From Streptomyces akebiae (lineage in GTDB: Bacteria > Actinomycetota > Actinomycetes > Streptomycetales > Streptomycetaceae), in contig NZ_CP080647.1 of assembly GCF_019599145.1 (NCBI RefSeq), positions 4,836,001 to 4,900,000 of the forward strand: 64,000 nucleotides of DNA. The letters run 5' to 3'. Each line of letters opens with the position of its first letter. Position 1 is the stretch's first letter. Shown piece after piece: positions 17,967 through 25,990 of this stretch. Both the position numbers and the translations under genes were made by a program. The notes below the pieces were generated by a model, which saw only the letters and a program-made list of their open reading frames with translations, did not search any database and had not been told where the DNA came from.

Positions 17967-19127
17967 TTACCGGCGGGCGTTGAGCCGGGCGGCCTGGCGG
18001 GTGAGGTGGGCGCGTTCGGCGAGGTTGGGGGCCTTGTCGGCGGCCTCGGTGTAGAGCCGTGCGGCTTTGGCCAGGTCGCCGTCACGCTCGTGGAGGTGGG
18101 CCGCGACCGCGGTGTGGCGGGGCAGGGAGTCGTCCAGTTCGGCGAGCGCGGCCAGACCGGCGCGGGGTCCGTCGGCCTCGCCGACGGCGACCGCGCGGTT
18201 GAGCCGGACGATGGGGTTGTCGGTCAGACGGGCCAGCTCGTCGTACCACTCGACGATCTGCACCCAGTCGGTCTCGTCGGCGGTGGGCGCGTCGGCGTGG
18301 AGAGCGGCGATGGCGGCCTGGGCCTGGAACTCGCCGAGCCGGTCGCGCGCGAGGGCCGCCTGAAGGATCCGCACGCCGTCGGCGATGAGACGCGTGTCCC
18401 ACCGGCCGCGGTCCTGTTCGGCGAGCGGCACCAGGCTGCCGTCGGGCGCGGTCCGGGCGGCGCGCCGGGCGTGGTGGAGCAGCATGAGGGCGAGTAGCCC
18501 GGCCACCTCGGGATGGTCGATCGCGGCCGCGAGCTGCCGGGTGAGCCGGATGGCCTCGGCCGCGAGGTCGACGTCGCCGGAGTAGCCCTCGTTGAAGACG
18601 AGGTAGAGCACGCGCAGCACGGTGGCGACGTCGGCCGGCCGGTCGAGGCGCACGCCGGAGACAGTCCGCTTCGCCCGACTGATGCGCTGCGCCATGGTCG
18701 CCTCGGGCACGAGGTAGGCCTCGGCGATCTGCCGGGTGGTGAGCCCGCCGACGGCGCGCAGGGTGAGCGCGACCGCCGACGCGGGGGTGAGCGACGGGTG
18801 GGCGCACAGGAAGTAGAGCTGGAGCGTGTCGTCCACGGCGGGCGCGGGCCCGGCCACCGGCTCCTCCTCGACGCGGTCCTCACGCCGACGGCGGGCGGCG
18901 TCGGCGCGGGCCGCGTCGAGGAACTTGCGCCAGGCCACGGTGACCAGCCAGCCCTTGGGATCCCGCGGCGGGTCGGCCGGCCAGACGCGGAGCGCCTCGA
19001 CCAGCGCGTCCTGCACGGCGTCCTCGGCCGCCGCGAAGTCGGCTCCGCGGCGGACGAGGACGGTGAGCACGCTGGGCGTGAGGCTCCTGAGCAGGACCTC
19101 GTCCATGGTGGACACCGGTGTTGTCAC
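17967..19127 (-). CDS. ECF-type sigma factor, ECF42 group
   Basis: The 386-residue protein starts at GTG 19127, whose GTGA overlaps the stop of the DGPF gene. Region 2 has FAAAEDAVQDALVEALRVWP and PKGWLVTVAWRKFLDAARAD. Region 4 has LTTRQIAEAYLVPEATMAQR and SRAKRTVSG. About 200 extra residues follow, forming a tetratricopeptide-like C-terminal extension (for example VLYLVFNEGYSGDVDL and YDELARLTDNPIVRLNRAVA). That extension, and a DGPF-domain partner, define the ECF42 group. These sigma factors have no anti-sigma factor; the extension is thought to control activity. The pair is translationally coupled. Confidence 0.92.
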   Translation of the reverse strand: MTTPVSTMDEVLLRSLTPSVLTVLVRRGADFAAAEDAVQDALVEALRVWPADPPRDPKGWLVTVAWRKFLDAARADAARRRREDRVEEEPVAGPAPAVDDTLQLYFLCAHPSLTPASAVALTLRAVGGLTTRQIAEAYLVPEATMAQRISRAKRTVSGVRLDRPADVATVLRVLYLVFNEGYSGDVDLAAEAIRLTRQLAAAIDHPEVAGLLALMLLHHARRAARTAPDGSLVPLAEQDRGRWDTRLIADGVRILQAALARDRLGEFQAQAAIAALHADAPTADETDWVQIVEWYDELARLTDNPIVRLNRAVAVGEADGPRAGLAALAELDDSLPRHTAVAAHLHERDGDLAKAARLYTEAADKAPNLAERAHLTRQAARLNARR

Positions 19128-19531
19128 TCCGTGATGGTGGGCTGCACGCCGTAGAACGGGCGCACCTCCAGCCACTCGTGGATCGGCTTGCCGCCCGCAC
19201 CGGGGGCGGCCGACAGCTCCCCGGCCAGCTCGACGGCACGCTCGTAGCTGTCGACGTCGATGATCATCCAGCCGGCGATCAGGTCCTTGGTCTCGGCGAA
19301 CGGGCCGTCGGTGACCGGCGGGCGCCCCTCACCGTCGTAGCGGACCCACGCCCCCTCAGGCGCGAGCGCCTGGCCGTCGACGAACTCGCCGGTCTTCTCC
19401 AGCCGGGCGGCGAAGTCGTTCATGTACTGCATGTGCGCCGAGATCTCATCGGGGCTCCACTGGTCCATCGGCACGTCGTTGACCGGGGCCGGGGCGCCTC
19501 GGTAGTGCTTCAGCAGCAGGTACTTGGCCAT
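19124..19531 (-). CDS. YCII-related DGPF-domain protein
   Basis: The 135-residue product carries the DGPF signature in VTDGPFAETKDLIAGWMIID and the usual start MAKYLLLKHYRGAPAP. These YCII-fold proteins are encoded beside ECF42 sigma factors and are their best conserved targets; biochemical function is unknown. It is the first gene of a two-gene unit with the sigma factor, overlapping it by GTGA. A candidate ECF42 promoter lies 53-79 bases upstream of the ATG. Length matches the family. Confidence 0.92.
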   Translation of the reverse strand: MAKYLLLKHYRGAPAPVNDVPMDQWSPDEISAHMQYMNDFAARLEKTGEFVDGQALAPEGAWVRYDGEGRPPVTDGPFAETKDLIAGWMIIDVDSYERAVELAGELSAAPGAGGKPIHEWLEVRPFYGVQPTITE

Positions 19532-19583
19532 CGTCGTACTCCTCGGGGCTCGTGCGACTCATTGTGGTCGCGTTCAACCCGGG

Positions 19584-19610
19584 GACGGAGCGGGACTCGG
19601 GTTCTCGACA
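19584..19610 (-). promoter_or_regulatory. Candidate ECF42-dependent promoter
   Basis: On the minus strand TGTCGA (19610-19605) is followed after 17 bases by CGTC (19587-19584), about 53 bases before the DGPF start. As I recall, ECF42 promoters in Streptomyces have TGTCGA at -35 and a short CG(A/T)C at -10, so this would make the unit self-activating. Confidence 0.5.
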
Positions 19611-19841
19611 TCGCCGTCGGACTTTTTCCGGGGGACTTTTTCCGGGGACTTTTTCGGGAGCCGGGCGGGAGCGGGTGCCGGCGGTGCAAGGGCCGCGGAC
19701 GGCCGGTAGCGGGGACCGCGACAGCGGCGGCCCCGGGGCGGCAGGCGGGACGGAGGGCCGGGCACGAGCCGGAAACGAAGCCGGAAACGACAAAGGCAAG
19801 GAGGTCATGCACTCCTTGCCACTCTCAACGTATAGCGCACC

Positions 19842-19865
19842 GGGGGGCTTGCGGCAAGGCCCCCG
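19842..19865 (+). promoter_or_regulatory. Rifamycin-associated element (RAE)
   Basis: The inverted repeat GGGGCTTGCGGCAAGGCCCC (within 19842-19865) lies 57 bases before the ATG of the glycosyltransferase. It matches the element I remember as the RAE, found upstream of rifamycin-inactivation genes and helR in actinobacteria and required for rifamycin induction. A TATAGC at 19831-19836 could be the -10 box, which would put the element at the transcription start. Exact consensus should be checked against published RAE alignments. Confidence 0.8.
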
Positions 19866-19921
19866 TGGTGCCGCAGAATCTCCGGCCTGAGCCTGAATCG
19901 ACGAAAACCGGGGGCGCTTGG

Positions 19922-21307
19922 ATGCGTGTGCTGTTGGCGAACTACGACTCGCGCGGGGGCGTCGAGCCGCTGGTGGGACTCGCGGTCCGGCTGCGTGAAC
20001 TCGACGCGGAGGTGCGGGTGTGCGCGCCGCCGGACGAGGAGTTCGCGCGGCGGCTGGCAGGTGTCGGCGTACCGCTGGTGCCGTTCGGCCGCCCCGTACG
20101 TGCGCTGATGACCGCGGCGGCGCCGCCGACGCCGGGCGGCGTGCCCCGGCGTGCGGCCGAGTTGCTCGCGGAGTTCGACACGGTCGCCGAGGCGGCCGAA
20201 GGCTGTGACGTCCTGGTGGCGACGGGGCTGCTCCCGGCCGCGGCCTGTGTGCGGTCGGTGGCCGACAAGCTGGGCATTCCGTACGTGTACGCGAGCTTCC
20301 AGTCCGTCTCCTTGCCGTCGCCCCACCATCCGCCGATGGCCCGGCCGGGGCGGCCGTTGCCGACGGACACGACCGACAACCGCGCCCTCTGGGACTTCGA
20401 CGCCCGGAGCGCGAACGACCTGTTCGGTGACGTGATCAACACCCACCGGACGTCGGTCGGCCTGCCACCGGTGGCCGACGTCCGCGACCACGTCTTCACC
20501 GACCGGCCGTGGCTGGCGACGGATCCGGTGCTGGATCCATGGAGGTCGCCGTCGGAGGTCGAGGTCGCGGGGGAGGGCGTACGACGCGAACCGCCGGAGG
20601 TCGAGGCCGCCGCAGAGGGCGTACGACGCGAACCGCCGGAGGTCGAGGCCGCCGCAGAGGGCGTACGACGCGAACCGCCGTCCTTCGGCCTCGGCGTCGA
20701 CGGCGTCGTGCAGACCGGCACATGGATCGTGCCGGACGAGAGACCGCTCGCGGCCGAGCTGGTGGCGTTCCTGGACGCGGGCGCGCCGCCCGTGTACGTC
20801 GGCTTCGGCAGCATCGCCATCGGCGGCTCGGAGGATGTCGCCCGAGCCTGCGTCGAGGCGATCCGCGCGCACGGTCGCCGCGTGATCCTCTCCCGGGGCT
20901 GGGCGGAACTGGCCGTCCTCGACGACCGGGACGACTGCTTCGTCGTCGGCGAGGCCAACCACCACGCGCTGTTCCGCCGCGTCGCCGCCGTCGTCCACCA
21001 CGGGGGCGCGGGTACGACGACGACGGCGACCTGGGCGGGCGCGCCCCAGGTGGTGGTGCCCCAGGGCGCGGACCAGCCGTACTTCGCGGGCCGGGTGGCC
21101 GACCTGGGCATCGGCGTGGCCCACGACGGCCCGACCCCGACGTTCGAGTCCCTGTCGGCGGCACTGAAGCCGGCCCTGGCGCCGGAGACGGCGGCGCGGG
21201 CGGCCGAGGTGGCCGGGATGGTCCTGCCGGACGGGGCGACGCGGGCGGCGCGGCTGCTGCTCGACACGTACGGAAGGGAGCGGCGGGGGTCGGCGGCGCC
21301 GGCGTGA
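19922..21307 (+). CDS. rgt: GT1 glycosyltransferase, probable rifamycin glycosyltransferase
   Basis: The 461-residue protein has a GT-B fold of the macrolide/glycopeptide glycosyltransferase type. The N-terminal acceptor domain starts MRVLLANYDSRGGVEPLVGL. The C-terminal sugar-nucleotide domain starts near PDERPLAAELVAFLDAGAPP, with VYVGFGSIAIGG and the donor-binding signature VHHGGAGTTTTATWAGAPQV then PQGADQPYFAGRV. An upstream RAE and a downstream helR indicate a role in glucosylating, and so inactivating, rifamycin (family known from Rgt). The start is the ATG at 19922 within GCTTGGATG; no strong Shine-Dalgarno is seen. An unusual 42-residue insertion (residues 212-253) of three 14-residue repeats lies in the interdomain linker. 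Substrate is inference from context. Confidence 0.8.
   Translation: MRVLLANYDSRGGVEPLVGLAVRLRELDAEVRVCAPPDEEFARRLAGVGVPLVPFGRPVRALMTAAAPPTPGGVPRRAAELLAEFDTVAEAAEGCDVLVATGLLPAAACVRSVADKLGIPYVYASFQSVSLPSPHHPPMARPGRPLPTDTTDNRALWDFDARSANDLFGDVINTHRTSVGLPPVADVRDHVFTDRPWLATDPVLDPWRSPSEVEVAGEGVRREPPEVEAAAEGVRREPPEVEAAAEGVRREPPSFGLGVDGVVQTGTWIVPDERPLAAELVAFLDAGAPPVYVGFGSIAIGGSEDVARACVEAIRAHGRRVILSRGWAELAVLDDRDDCFVVGEANHHALFRRVAAVVHHGGAGTTTTATWAGAPQVVVPQGADQPYFAGRVADLGIGVAHDGPTPTFESLSAALKPALAPETAARAAEVAGMVLPDGATRAARLLLDTYGRERRGSAAPA
20555..20680 (+). repeat. Three 42-bp in-frame tandem repeats in rgt
   Basis: Three directly adjacent 42-base units encode 14 residues each. Units 2 and 3 (20597-20638, 20639-20680) are identical and encode EVEAAAEGVRREPP; unit 1 differs at a few bases. 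They fall between the two domains of the glycosyltransferase, where length change should be tolerated. Confidence 0.95.
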
Positions 21308-21666
21308 GCGGGGCCCGTGCCGGCGTGAGCGGGGGGGGTGGCGGGCGGGCAGGGGCGTACGACCGGTGGGCCAGCGCCAGGGCCAGGGCCAGGGCCAGGG
21401 CCTGTGACTGGCGGGCTGGTCGACCGGCGGCCGGGGCCCACGACCGGTACTCCGGGCCCCACGACCGGCGTGAGCCGCCCCCAGGCCACGGCACACCACG
21501 CCATGCGGCACACCCACTCCCTGTGACGCACCCCCGCCCACAAGGCACCACCCCACCCCACCCCCGTCACGACGCACCCCACCCCCCGAGGCACCCCCGC
21601 CCCGCAGGACCGCCGCCCGCACCCCCACACTCGAAGCACGCGCACATGACGTTCGGAGTCAATGAG
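21308..21666. other. rgt-helR intergenic region, simple repeats
   Basis: The 359 bases between rgt and helR contain an AGGGCC hexamer run (about 21376-21402) and two near-copies of GGGCC(C)CACGACCGG at about 21438-21470, which include a short GGGGCCC/GGGCCCC hairpin. A C-rich, CCCCACC-type stretch runs to 21630. No second RAE was found, so helR is probably read from the rgt promoter or from an unrecognised one. A GGAG ribosome binding site stands 7 bases before the helR ATG. Confidence 0.5.
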
Positions 21667-24036
21667 ATGAACCCCCCGACCATCCCCACCAACCCCAGCG
21701 CGTTCCGCCTCCCCGACCGACTAGCCGCGAAAGCCGACCCCTCCCTCATCTCGACCGACGAGCGGCACTTCGCGGCCCTCGCCACCTGCCTCGCCCAGTC
21801 GATCGCCGAGGCCTCCGCGCAGCTCGACGCCGAACGGCGGGCCCCCGGCGGCCTGGGCCGGCACGCCATGGACCGCGACACGGAGATCCACCGCCTGACC
21901 GCCCGTCTGCGCACCCTGCGCCGCTTCGGCCTGGACCTGTGCCTCGGCCACATGGTGACCGAGGACGCCCCGGAGACCCCCGTCTACATCGGCCGCCTGG
22001 GCCTCACCGACAGCACCACGGGCCGCCGCCTGCTGATCGACTGGCGCTCCCCCGCCGCCGAGCCCTTCTTCGGCGCGACGCACGCCAACCCGATGGGCCT
22101 CACCAGCCGCCGCCGCTACCGCTGGACCGACGGCCGTGTCAGCGACTACTGGGACGAGATCTTCTCCTCCTCCGCACTCGACAGCCGCACCGACCACCAC
22201 CACACCGCCGCCCTCGACGACCAGTCCGCGTTCATCGCCAGCCTGGGCACCAACAGGTCCGAGCGCATGCGGGACGTGCTCGGCACCATCCAGGCCGACC
22301 AGGACGCCGTCATCCGCGCGAGTTCCCGGGGCGCGCTGGTCGTGGACGGCGGCCCCGGCACCGGCAAGACGGTCGTCGCCCTGCACCGCTCCGCCTACCT
22401 CCTCCACTCCGACCCCCGTCTGGGCCACCGCCGGGGCGGCGTCCTCTTCGTCGGCCCCCACCGCCCGTACCTCTCCTACGTCGCCGACGTCCTGCCCAGC
22501 CTCGGCGAGGAGGGCGTGCAGACGTGCATCCTGCGGGACCTGGTCGAGGAGGGGGCGGCGGCCGGTGTCGAGCCCGACCCGGAGGTGGCGCGTCTGAAGT
22601 CGTCGGCGGCGCTGGTGGGCGGCATCGAGAAGGCCGTCCGCTTCTACGAGGAACCGCCCACCGAGGGCATGACGGTCACGACACCCTGGTCCGACATCCG
22701 GCTGAGCCCCGCCGACTGGACCGCGGCCTTCGACGCGGCGGAACCGGGCACCCCGCACAACGAGGCCCGCCACCAGGTCTGGGAGGAACTGCTCACCATC
22801 CTGACCGACAGGCACGAGGCGCAAACCGCCGCCGATCCCGCCGGGGATGCCGAGTCCGAGGCGGCCGTACCACCCGCCCTCCTGCGCAGGGCCCTCCTCC
22901 AGAACAGGGACCTGGTCACGACCTTCAACCGGGCCTGGCCGCTTCTGGAGGCGGCGGACCTGGTGGGGGACCTGTGGTCGGTACCGGCGTACCTGCGGCT
23001 GTGCGCCCCCTGGCTGACCCGTGACGAAGTGCGGCGCCTCCAGCGCGACGACCCCCAGGCCTGGACGACCTCCGACCTCCCCCTCCTCGACGCCGCCCGT
23101 CAACGCCTGGGCGACCCGGAGACGGCCCGCCGCAAACGCCGCCACGCGGCCACCCTCGCCGCCCAGCGCGAGCGCATGACCCAGGTCGTGGACAACCTGA
23201 TCGAGGCGGTGTCCAACTCCGGCGCCGACGGCGACGACGGCGAAGGCCTGGTGACGATGCTGCGCGGCGAGGACGCCCAGGTGAGCCTGGTCGACGACGC
23301 CGAACTCCACACCGCCGACCCGGACCTGCTGGCGGGCCCCTTCGCCCACATCGTCGTGGACGAGGCGCAGGAACTGACCGACGCGGAATGGCAGATGCTG
23401 CTGCAGCGCTGCCCGTCCCGCAGTTTCACGATCGTCGGGGACCGCGCCCAGGCCAGGCACGGCTTCACGGAGTCCTGGGAGGACCGTCTGAAGAGGGTGG
23501 GCCTGGACCGCATCACGCAGTCCTCCCTCACCATCAACTACCGCACCCCGGAAGAGATCATGACGGAGGCGGAACCGGTGATCCGGGCCGCCCTCCCCGA
23601 CGCGAACGTCCCGACGTCCATCCGCAGCAACGGCATCCCGGTCGAACGCATCCTGACGTCGGACCTGACCTCGGACCTGGCGTCGAACCTGACCTCGGAC
23701 CTGGCGTCGAACCTGACCTCGGACCTGACATCAGACCTGCCCTCGGACCTGAACACCGCCCTGAACACCGCCCTGAGCACGACCCTGGGCACCTGGCTGT
23801 CCACCACCACCGACGGAACCGCGTGCGTGATCACCGCGCCGAGCTCCGCGACGCGCGTCCCCCCGACCCCCCGAGTCCGCCACCTCACCCCCGAACTGTC
23901 GAAGGGCCTCGAATTCGACCTCGTGGTCCTCATCGACCCGGAAACCTTCGGTGAGGGCATCGAGGGAGCGGTGGACCACTACGTGGCGATGACCCGGGCG
24001 ACCCAACGACTGGTGATCCTCACGACCACCTCCTGA
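21667..24036 (+). CDS. helR: RNA polymerase recycling motor ATPase HelR (HelD-like)
   Basis: The 789-residue protein is a superfamily 1 helicase-like ATPase of the HelD type. The N-terminus (residues about 20-90) forms the helical region that enters RNA polymerase (SIAEASAQLDAERRAPGGLG, then RDTEIHRLTARLRTLRRFG). Walker A is GGPGTGKT (228-235), and Walker B is VDEAQELT (DEAQ 565-568). Motif III-like is VGDRAQARHGF; motif IV-VI regions read INYRTPEEIMTEAEP, TPELSKGLEFDLVVL and HYVAMTRATQRLVIL. HelR proteins displace rifamycin from RNA polymerase and rescue transcription. The ATG at 21667 has GGAG 7 bases upstream; an earlier ATG at 21646 is weaker. It lies downstream of rgt and its RAE. Residues 663-706 are a repeat expansion (see separate entry). 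Confidence 0.88.
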   Translation: MNPPTIPTNPSAFRLPDRLAAKADPSLISTDERHFAALATCLAQSIAEASAQLDAERRAPGGLGRHAMDRDTEIHRLTARLRTLRRFGLDLCLGHMVTEDAPETPVYIGRLGLTDSTTGRRLLIDWRSPAAEPFFGATHANPMGLTSRRRYRWTDGRVSDYWDEIFSSSALDSRTDHHHTAALDDQSAFIASLGTNRSERMRDVLGTIQADQDAVIRASSRGALVVDGGPGTGKTVVALHRSAYLLHSDPRLGHRRGGVLFVGPHRPYLSYVADVLPSLGEEGVQTCILRDLVEEGAAAGVEPDPEVARLKSSAALVGGIEKAVRFYEEPPTEGMTVTTPWSDIRLSPADWTAAFDAAEPGTPHNEARHQVWEELLTILTDRHEAQTAADPAGDAESEAAVPPALLRRALLQNRDLVTTFNRAWPLLEAADLVGDLWSVPAYLRLCAPWLTRDEVRRLQRDDPQAWTTSDLPLLDAARQRLGDPETARRKRRHAATLAAQRERMTQVVDNLIEAVSNSGADGDDGEGLVTMLRGEDAQVSLVDDAELHTADPDLLAGPFAHIVVDEAQELTDAEWQMLLQRCPSRSFTIVGDRAQARHGFTESWEDRLKRVGLDRITQSSLTINYRTPEEIMTEAEPVIRAALPDANVPTSIRSNGIPVERILTSDLTSDLASNLTSDLASNLTSDLTSDLPSDLNTALNTALSTTLGTWLSTTTDGTACVITAPSSATRVPPTPRVRHLTPELSKGLEFDLVVLIDPETFGEGIEGAVDHYVAMTRATQRLVILTTTS
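23653..23784 (+). repeat. Eleven 12-bp in-frame units in helR
   Basis: Eleven consecutive 12-base units encode tetrapeptides starting with Leu: LTSD, LTSD, LASN, LTSD, LASN, LTSD, LTSD, LPSD, LNTA, LNTA, LSTT. They sit between the INYRTPEEI motif and the last helicase motifs, in a segment that other HelR proteins bridge with ordinary sequence, as far as I recall. Confidence 0.93.
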
Positions 24037-24045
24037 GCCCGACGT

Positions 24046-24612
24046 TCATCCGCCGCGAGCGGCCCCGTCCGGCCAGACGACGTCCACGGGGATCCCGGCC
24101 CCCCGCGCTGCGAGCACGGCATCGGCGGTGCCGCCGCCCTTGCCGGTGGGCGGCGCACCGTCCCATACGGCCACGAGCCGATCGGCCCGCTGGATGAGTA
24201 CGGCGTTGGCGGCCTCGTACGCCTCCCGGTCGGCCGTCTCGTAGGGAAGCACGACGACCTCCCCGGCGGCCTCGACGAGCCGGTCGTACGCGTCCCCGTG
24301 CGCAGGCTCGACGGTGTTCCGCCGATAGTCGCGCGAGGGCACGACGACGATCAGCCGCCCGCCGAGACCGAGCACGGCTTCGGCGAAGACCGTGTCGGCC
24401 CCCTTGGCGATACAGGACACCCCGACGAGGGAGCTGCCGGGGCCGTCGGGGCCTCCGGGGCCGCCGGGGCGACCGTCCGCGGCGTACGGTCTGAGCAGGT
24501 CGTCCAACGCCTCACGCACGAGTGGGACGGTCTTCTCGGTCAGGTCCAGATGCCCGGTCACCGCGATGGCTGTCCGCTGTCGCGAGGCCGGGACGACCTT
24601 GGCGATGGTCAT
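24046..24612 (-). CDS. SLOG-type nucleotide-binding protein
   Basis: The 188-residue protein is a Rossmann-like SLOG/DprA-LOG fold. It starts with a TGHLDL motif after a beta strand and has SCIAKGADTVFAEAVLGLGG in the second helix. VVVPSRDYRRN and the C-terminal signature AVWDGAPPTGKGGGTADAVL follow. SLOG proteins bind nucleotides or nucleotide-derived signals; stand-alone actinobacterial members have no assigned reaction. A Gly/Pro-rich insertion (GGPGGPDGPG) interrupts the first third. It is convergent with helR, only 9 bases apart, and follows the HTH gene in the same direction after a repeat-containing 49-base gap with a GAGGGAGG ribosome binding site. Confidence 0.75.
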   Translation of the reverse strand: MTIAKVVPASRQRTAIAVTGHLDLTEKTVPLVREALDDLLRPYAADGRPGGPGGPDGPGSSLVGVSCIAKGADTVFAEAVLGLGGRLIVVVPSRDYRRNTVEPAHGDAYDRLVEAAGEVVVLPYETADREAYEAANAVLIQRADRLVAVWDGAPPTGKGGGTADAVLAARGAGIPVDVVWPDGAARGG

Positions 24613-24661
24613 GCGATGACGCCTCCCTCTTAGCTGTCGCTCCTCTTAGCTGTCGCTCCTG

Positions 24662-25990
24662 CTAGCTGTCGAGCGGGACCCAGGCTCGCTCTCCCGCGTC
24701 GTTCGTGCCGTACCAGTAGTGCGGCATGCCCTTGATGCCGGTGGTGTGGAACGGGCGGCCGTCGTCGTCGATGCGGATCGTGCCGGTGCGGCCCTGGGAG
24801 GACCAGTCGAGTTCGAGGTACCAGCGGGCGTCGTAGGTCTGTGTCGTCGCGTGGACCTCCAGCACCTCCGGATCCTCGGCGGAGACACGGTACGGGAAGC
24901 GCACGGCCGGGATGATGTGCCCGCCGTCGGCACCGTTCGCGCCGTCCTTCGGCTGGGCGACGGGCCGGTCCTCGTCGAGGTTCACGGTGAAGCGACGGGG
25001 GGTGAGGTCGCTGCCGCAGCCCTGGCCCATGGAGTGGGCGTTGCCGTCGGCGGGAGTGCCGCGGCTGACGACCCTGACGTGGATCGCCTTCAGGACCACG
25101 GCCGTGGACGACCGCCCCTGCACGGAGATCTGCACCTTCGTCTGCCGCCCGTGCACCGCGCCCTGCGTCGCGGCCCACACCTCGACGTCCTGCGGGAGCG
25201 GCGGCGGAGGCACCTGCGCGACCGGCTTGTCGATGACGTAGTCGTGGTCGCAGCCCTTGTCCCAGACCAGGGGGTCGACGCTCCAGGTGAGGGGCGGGTC
25301 GGCGGCGGGCTCGGTGGCCGACGGCTGCGTGGCCGAAGGCTGCGCCGAGCGGCCGGGTGAGCCGGCGGCGGTCGTCCCGGCGGTGCCCCCGGGGCGCACG
25401 GAGCGGGACGCGTCCGTCCCGGAGGAGTGGCCGCCGGAGAGGGCGGACAGACCCGCGACGGTGATGATGACGAGCAGGGCACAGGCAGCGGCGGCGGTGG
25501 TGGACGCGAGGATCCGTCGACGGCGGCGTGCGGAGCCCGAACGGTCGCCGTATCGGCTGTCCCGGTCCCTGCCGCCGTCCCGGTCCCTGCCGCCGTCCCC
25601 GTCCCTCTCCCCCTCCCCGTCCCTCTCCCTCTCCCCGTCCCCGTCCCCGTCTGCCTCCGTGTCCCTGCCTTTACTCCTCTCCATGTCCGGTGCGGGTGCC
25701 GGAATTGCTGCCTCCGGCGAGCCGGCCGTACGCACCCGCTGCCGGGCCGCCACCGCCGACAGCCACAGTCGGTGCAGTTCGAGCCGCTCCTGAGGTGTCG
25801 CCCCGCAGAAGCCCGCGAGCCGCTCGACGGGCGCGAAGTCCTGCGGCACGCCCTCGCCCGCGCAGTACCGGTGCAGTGTGGAGGCGTTCATGTCGAGCTC
25901 GCGGGCGAGGGAGCCGTAACTCCGGCCGGTGCGGTCCTTGAGCTGACGCAGCAACGCCGCGAACTCCTCGGCATCGTCCCGAACCGACAT
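24662..25990 (-). CDS. Membrane-anchored XRE-type HTH protein with secreted-side domain
   Basis: The 442-residue protein begins with a helix-turn-helix of the actinobacterial XRE type (LLRQLKDRTGRSYGSLAREL, then NASTLHRYCAGEGVPQ). A highly charged repeat follows (residues about 105-150: GDGERERDGEGERDGDGGRD and similar). One membrane segment (ILASTTAAAACALLVIITVAGL, about 160-182) is next. After a Ser/Thr/Pro spacer, a C-terminal domain of about 220 residues ends in DGRPFHTTGIKGMPHYWYGT. The architecture suggests an anti-sigma-like or one-component sensor with a cytoplasmic HTH and an extracytoplasmic sensor. Targets are unknown. Just past its stop, GAGCGACAGCTAA-type units are duplicated. 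Confidence 0.75.
   Translation of the reverse strand: MSVRDDAEEFAALLRQLKDRTGRSYGSLARELDMNASTLHRYCAGEGVPQDFAPVERLAGFCGATPQERLELHRLWLSAVAARQRVRTAGSPEAAIPAPAPDMERSKGRDTEADGDGDGERERDGEGERDGDGGRDRDGGRDRDSRYGDRSGSARRRRRILASTTAAAACALLVIITVAGLSALSGGHSSGTDASRSVRPGGTAGTTAAGSPGRSAQPSATQPSATEPAADPPLTWSVDPLVWDKGCDHDYVIDKPVAQVPPPPLPQDVEVWAATQGAVHGRQTKVQISVQGRSSTAVVLKAIHVRVVSRGTPADGNAHSMGQGCGSDLTPRRFTVNLDEDRPVAQPKDGANGADGGHIIPAVRFPYRVSAEDPEVLEVHATTQTYDARWYLELDWSSQGRTGTIRIDDDGRPFHTTGIKGMPHYWYGTNDAGERAWVPLDS

Follow-up and report, generated by a model that had tools for sequence, protein, structure and literature searches.

Rifamycin resistance genes of Actinobacteria, namely rgt, rox, helR and arr, are described as being controlled by the rifamycin-associated element (RAE; PMC10719064, PMC8655204), a 19-bp palindrome according to reviews. 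In Mycobacterium smegmatis the RAE has already been noted to lie over the −35 region of the sense promoter (PMC10719064, PMC8655204), and papers from 2022 and 2026 call rifamycin induction through the RAE in actinomycetes unresolved. For the helD alarm of Bacillus subtilis, experiments showed that a weak sense promoter converges with a strong antisense one, which has a 19-bp spacer and gives an RNA terminated after ~90 nt (PMC12802891). Here we analyzed a 64,000-nucleotide stretch of the Streptomyces akebiae genome (the window; bases 4,836,001–4,900,000 of contig 1, genome size 10.5 Mb) in which an RAE precedes an rgt-type and a helR-type gene. As in the actinobacterial accounts, the 19-bp palindrome stands upstream of the same gene families; here, by contrast, it appears to be the center of a promoter pair, strong outward and weak towards the genes, with an outward terminator, features absent from the passages of those accounts. 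The titles and abstracts of the literature found, a scope outside which the PNAS 2014 paper and two 2022 Mol Cell primary papers fall, describe no outward-facing promoter or terminator for this element, and passages of PMC10719064, PMC8655204, PMC12802891, PMC13001253 and PMC7283461 do not mention one either. The genes and the RAE are already known; the outward promoter-terminator anatomy is provisionally new.

The palindrome of the window matches exactly what we take to be the RAE consensus. A scan of the whole window with up to 3 mismatches returned this one site, on both its strands, with 0.07 expected by chance. It ends 59 bases before the ATG of rgt (19922), which bears out the original prediction of an RAE in front of a glycosyltransferase gene. 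The genome holds two RAE sites with at most one mismatch, and the second precedes a rifampin monooxygenase (Rox) gene whose product scores 841.5 bits against an equivalog cut-off of 800, so that both copies lie upstream of a rifamycin resistance gene, one of Rgt type and one rox. When the two were aligned, the entire block surrounding the RAE proved to be conserved. The prediction had treated the RAE as a lone repeat, and this part did not hold, as the RAE is the center of a longer conserved element; the coordinates of the prediction left out the conserved stretch 19785-19843, which lies upstream of it. The features of the locus are as follows, with gene identities resting on NCBIfam family models.

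19785..19820, minus strand: intrinsic-terminator-like hairpin (arms 19820-19812 and 19803-19795, T-rich tail 19794-19785)
19827..19832, minus strand: putative outward (antisense) −10 hexamer TACGTT, a TAnnnT at the conserved offset
19844..19862, plus strand: RAE 19-mer GGGGCTTGCGGCAAGGCCC, exact consensus match
19849-19854, plus strand, and 19857-19852, minus strand: two overlapping −35-like hexamers within the RAE, TTGCGG and TTGCCG respectively, inferred from spacing
19874..19879, plus strand: putative gene-side −10 hexamer CAGAAT, an nAnnnT at the mirror position, first base not T
19922..21307, plus strand: rgt, Rgt-type GT1 glycosyltransferase, 461 aa (NF000354, 507.3 bits, under the cut-off of 800)
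21667..24036, plus strand: helR, HelR-type RNA polymerase recycling ATPase, 789 aa (NF041254, 1213.7 bits)

To describe the conserved element we gathered 257 RAE occurrences in loci from the genus and the class, counting repeats of the same place; 208 of them were followed on one side by a gene for HelR (93), Rox (74) or Rgt (41). The elements came from the RAE matches listed, for the genus from the loci returned and 60 further places and for the class from 30 loci and 40 places, and the class sample was enlarged by searching 50 of the 157 RAE-positive genomes again (30 loci and 20 places). Outside Streptomyces, 39 of the 50 genera with an RAE match were sampled. Removal of duplicates, of elements near a locus end and of those with ambiguous orientation left 219 distinct elements, 185 oriented by their gene alone and 34 by the TATA block; these 34 stayed out of the mirror −10 counts and entered the hairpin (219) and covariation (115 Streptomyces) counts. 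In sets chosen by the RAE pattern the RAE letters are fixed and give no evidence of conservation, and related genomes are not independent samples.

A TAnnnT hexamer was located exactly 12–17 bases outside the RAE on the outward side in 182 of the 185 elements (93/94 Streptomyces, 89/91 others), and the next best offset had it in 4 elements of each set. At the exact mirror offset on the gene side, the looser pattern nAnnnT was found in 184/185 (94/94 Streptomyces, 90/91 others; 27 and 15, respectively, at the next best offsets), with T as the first base in 0/94 Streptomyces and 2/91 other elements and with CAGAAT or CACAAT as the usual hexamer. The inner bases of the outward hexamer vary (TAAGTT, TACGTT, TATGTT, TAGGTT, TATCCT, TAAAAT and others), as expected for a −10 box. 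Read as promoter elements, a canonical −10 is maintained on the outward side and a weak one on the inward side. The spacer between the −35-like hexamer and its −10 measures 19 bases on both arms. The central base of the RAE is G in 85/94 Streptomyces and 68/91 other elements, so that the −35-like hexamer reads TTGCC outward and TTGCG inward; the usual −35 being TTGAC, the outward hexamer fits better.

The same arrangement was found in a second set of 72 distinct exact-RAE elements, taken from loci collected by HelR similarity and with a 99-base core absent from the first set: the outward TAnnnT was present in 72/72, the inward nAnnnT in 72/72, and an inward first T in 0/72. Outside Streptomyces, 113 of 120 distinct RAEs carried the strong/weak pair, covering 37/39 genera and 15/15 families sampled, compared with 2/6000 base-shuffled flanks, either orientation being allowed in both counts. 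Among the seven exceptions, L126 and L139 carry a gene-side hexamer that begins with T, and the rest show one-base shifts or changes of one or a few bases; a relaxed search for elements with shifted spacers found none. Mycobacterial-type arr loci oriented by hand followed the strong-out/weak-in rule in 12/12 cases, which cannot be counted as independent of the 120 (one more locus, L174, lacked a clear Arr start); three of the 12 Arr proteins pass the general ARR model. Given this regularity, we hold with good confidence that the RAE forms the core of a two-way promoter with mirror symmetry.

Next to the outward −10 lies the second part of the element. On the minus strand of the window a perfect 9-bp stem (19820-19795) is followed by TTTGTCGTTT, and the fold has a z score of −3.61 on the minus strand and −5.03 on the plus strand. 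Among the 115 Streptomyces elements, a stem with a score of at least 7 starting no more than 14 nt from the outward −10 was present in 104, compared with 66/575 dinucleotide shuffles and 4/115 on the gene side. When 4 or more T were also required among the 9 bases that follow, these numbers became 69/115, 10/575 and 0/115. In 109 distinct Streptomyces hairpins, pairing was preserved in 43 and lost in 6 cases of change in both arms, and preserved in 43 and lost in 32 cases of change in one arm. Pairs were formed at 943 of 981 positions, compared with 899 on average and 913 at most when partners were dealt anew, a comparison that favors the observed value because the register was chosen for best pairing and the control was not re-registered. 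The second set had at least 8 of the 9 pairs in 66/72 elements (base shuffles 73/1440, gene side 0/72). From these data, most outward arms in Streptomyces are predicted to lead into an intrinsic terminator whose stem covaries. With a start ~7 nt beyond the outward −10, the first RNA base would be at about 19820, on the edge of the stem, and the RNA would be ~35 nt long.

Other roles for this block were considered. The window hairpin holds AAGGAGGT and an ATG, as a leader-peptide attenuator might, yet an ATG at any given position is shared by at most 5 of the 115 Streptomyces elements and the candidate was rejected; some ATG or GTG frame is open for 25 codons in 31/115. A scan of 19000-25000 against Rfam gave a single match (24120-24160), far under the gathering score, and a known RNA family was discarded as well. 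Upstream of the RAE, the intergenic segment 19619-19655 contains GGACTTTTTCCGGG-like units in tandem, which give terminator-like matches on the plus strand. Divergent from rgt, on the minus strand at 17967-19531, lies a DUF6596-containing sigma factor of extracytoplasmic function (ECF) type next to a YCII-domain protein, and it is towards these genes that the outward RNA would head if it were not terminated.

From this anatomy, its conservation and the gene content we infer the transcription starts, the termination, the dominance of one arm and the switch. The opposed TTG hexamers overlap within the RAE, each at its own distance of 19 bases from a −10, so that only one polymerase could load at a time and the arms would be mutually exclusive. 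The outward arm would be dominant, having the better −10 (TAnnnT vs. CAnnnT) and usually the better −35 (TTGCC vs. TTGCG). Without drug, polymerase would fire mainly outward and be terminated at ~35 nt; this firing would hold the gene arm low, and the terminator would shield the upstream genes. Rifamycin would then shift initiation to the gene arm, a step to which we give an even chance. The strict upkeep of an apparently non-coding outward arm suggests that this arm matters for the switch. As a whole, an inducible rgt-helR operon behind a strong-out/weak-in two-way RAE promoter is the explanation that we favor, with moderate confidence.

The sensor is rather likely to be a dedicated dimeric factor bound on the RAE; RNA polymerase itself is a weaker, though serious, candidate. 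A more specific version, in which polymerase is the sensor and the outward promoter and terminator form a local recycling loop that blocks the gene arm, we regard as speculative. The same polymerase would fire, terminate at ~35 nt and reload nearby, each round being an exposure to the drug, and even a small share of drug-bound polymerase would break the loop and thereby release the gene arm. Local re-initiation after intrinsic termination has been reported for the E. coli polymerase (PMC6978322, PMC7957599). We explored the idea with a toy steady-state model, its rates chosen arbitrarily, that assumes prompt exit of the drug-arrested polymerase from the site; 10% drug-bound polymerase gave 0.95-fold output, that is, no induction, in the absence of recycling, and 1.7-, 9.5- and 88-fold induction at recycling probabilities of 0.9, 0.99 and 0.999. 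Promoter competition as the sole inducer was rejected, as the output of the model then only falls with drug. Remodeling of a spacer by a MerR-type regulator was set aside by reasoning only, because the palindrome is placed on the −35 hexamers and not between −35 and −10.

Several observations weigh against the proposed switch. Induction in the toy model never arises from exclusive occupancy alone, and in B. subtilis a construct with mutually exclusive promoters lost induction (PMC12802891). Two-way promoters of E. coli compete only if they are highly active (PMC12825309), and in M. smegmatis a sense start was reported ~20 bp upstream of the RAE (PMC10719064), which the two-way promoter does not explain. 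A sigma-70 consensus scan of both strands of 19500-24200 found no promoter-like site, its spacers being limited to 16–18 bases and thus excluding 19. The hairpin is palindromic and folds on both strands, so it could bind a protein instead of terminating. Outside Streptomyces the stem was present in only 52/104 elements (shuffles 42/520, gene side 16/104), and together with at least 4 T in 16/104 (shuffles 4/520, gene side 2/104). Finally, a switch made of polymerase only is at odds with the 16 near-invariant positions of the RAE, which exceed what sigma contacts need and suggest a bound dimer.

These positions are also an argument for the strongest rival, in which the RAE is, as supposed in the literature, the operator of a dimeric rifamycin-responsive regulator and the outward −10 and terminator reflect operator symmetry and insulation, with no role in sensing. 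In 140 loci chosen by their gene, the element was recovered in 126, with 4 substitutions at the 16 fixed RAE positions over 108 distinct elements; this count demands the mirror −10 pair, and the 14 loci without it were scored as having no element. Such conservation goes beyond the needs of a −35, and reviews favor a further factor. However, a canonical −10 retained at one single offset (182/185) beside a weak gene-side −10 is hardly to be expected of a by-product. We consider this rival possible but doubtful.

The comparison with the closest described systems can now be drawn. With the B. subtilis alarm, the RAE loci would share the logic of a strong antisense over a weak sense promoter, the 19-bp spacer, the short terminated RNA and a gene for defense against rifampicin, and the sequence signals at the RAE agree with a stronger antisense promoter and an intrinsic terminator. 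The B. subtilis promoters, however, are convergent and non-exclusive and have no RAE, whereas the RAE pair is divergent with overlapping −35-like hexamers. The RAE pair is thus not a member of the B. subtilis type, and a plain copy of that system was rejected on account of the different geometry and of the published steric test. The RAE pair also resembles the bidirectional promoters of E. coli (PMC12825309), which are likewise pseudo-symmetric and engage polymerase in one orientation at once. Typical distances between their starts are 10, 18 or 23 bp, compared with the ~65 bp expected at the RAE, where in addition the center of symmetry is the −35 pair and one of the products would be a terminated short RNA.

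We then surveyed 121 genomes of the genus for rgt, helR and the RAE. The RAE, allowing up to one mismatch, is present in 100 of them, HelR over its cut-off in 81, and 66 Rgt-like genes of at least 370 bits in 51, the rgt of the window being counted once although the model matched two pieces. Both genes are carried by 43 genomes, and in 27 the rgt directly precedes helR on the same strand, so the cassette cannot be regarded as a rarity. Every one of the 27 regions contains a single exact RAE, located in front of rgt; the gap between the genes is free of RAE cores throughout and spans −25 to 359 bases, that of the window being the longest. A collection of 80 named helR loci, gathered by HelR similarity, divided into 31 with the order RAE-rgt-helR, 45 with an exact RAE but without a full rgt in between and 4 without an exact RAE, three of which have one RAE base changed (L293, L330, L348). 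The fourth, L327, the helR of Streptomyces panaciradicis, has no recognizable RAE within 519 bases upstream, possibly a natural loss of the switch or an effect of the contig end. In six of the 80 loci (L310, L330, L336, L348, L349, L355) only pieces of rgt are found between the RAE and helR; rgt seems to decay in these loci while the RAE and helR persist, with the RAE still serving helR.

That rgt and helR share one transcript, as the original prediction had proposed, is supported though not proved by these remnants, and together with the single RAE before rgt in 27/27 cassettes and the RAE-free gaps this support comes by comparison only. We conclude that the locus is very probably a rifamycin-inducible two-gene operon, in which the Rgt-type enzyme would modify the drug and HelR would strip it from RNA polymerase. 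The alternative that helR is driven mainly by a promoter of its own in the 359-base gap, and not by the RAE, takes its appeal from that gap being the longest of 27, but we find it improbable given that gaps shrink to overlap and lack an RAE core, that rgt pieces separate the RAE from helR in 6/80 loci, and that the sigma-70 scan, made with one consensus only, detected no site in 19500-24200. Two further observations concern such loci. An rgt fragment covering model positions 1-122 adjoins helR at G023:C1:6266240-6266605, and in Streptomyces nigrescens HEK616 a helR with its own RAE (L289) is located on the 1.07-Mb plasmid SNP1.

The block left of the RAE could also be read in the other direction, as a second, sense promoter with TATAGC as its −10, the hairpin being part of the mRNA 5′ region or a protein site. 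The upstream sense start reported in M. smegmatis and the folding of the hairpin on the plus strand are consistent with this. However, the sixth base of that hexamer (position −8), usually T, is C in 94/94 Streptomyces elements, and in relatives the box varies as a minus-strand TAnnnT. The sequence after the stem is T-rich in the outward direction (66, 88 and 70% T at the first three bases) and mostly ACTCTC, with no run, inward. A sense promoter in this block is accordingly quite unlikely.

Regarding the proteins, the identification of the second as a HelD-type ATPase of HelR type on the same strand as rgt was confirmed, its match to the HelR model being 1213.7 bits against a cut-off of 750. 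It also matches the M. smegmatis-type HelD of the solved structures (E = 1.1e-92) in an alignment that covers the primary-channel loop region. The start of helR may alternatively be the in-frame ATG at 21646. While the protein exceeds the NCBIfam HelR cut-off, it differs from HelR and class II HelD by a C-terminal in-frame insertion of a 12/24-bp repeat (23652-23780, DLTSDLASNL-like), where the model match breaks.

For the glycosyltransferase, Rgt was by far the top model with 507.3 bits, followed by an activator-dependent (55.6) and a macrolide (54.2) glycosyltransferase model, and the predicted Rgt-type identity is supported; the curated Rgt cut-off of 800 was not reached, and for this reason we name the enzyme Rgt-type and not Rgt. 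As no match in any of the 121 genomes reaches 800 bits, this shortfall says little. RAE-linked Rgt-like genes are common in these genomes, and automatic annotation with NF000354 may miss them. An in-frame tandem repeat of 3.1 copies of 42 bp (20549-20680) splits the Rgt model match and for that reason probably sits between the two glycosyltransferase domains; its copy number may vary within the clade, the relatives listed spanning 403-542 aa. Among the matches listed, the nearest relatives of both proteins belong to Streptomyces, several of them to the S. scabiei/S. europaeiscabiei/S. caniscabiei group. That the enzyme acts on another substrate, for example a glycopeptide, and is in the cassette by chance is suggested by its score of 507 against 800, by GtfA, GtfB and GtfD being its closest solved relatives and by the label vancomycin aglycone glucosyltransferase that its relatives often bear in their sources, yet with the cut-off unreached across the genus and the gene placed behind an RAE, a signal that also precedes HelR, Rox and Arr genes, there is little to recommend this view.

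The rgt-helR pair clearly illustrates how inactivation of a drug and protection of its target may be placed under one switch. If the RAE is a strong-out/weak-in promoter, the question of how rifamycins induce these genes narrows to the existence of a short outward RNA and to whether polymerase suffices for the switch. Distant bacteria would then also have arrived at one strong-antisense/weak-sense logic by different geometries.

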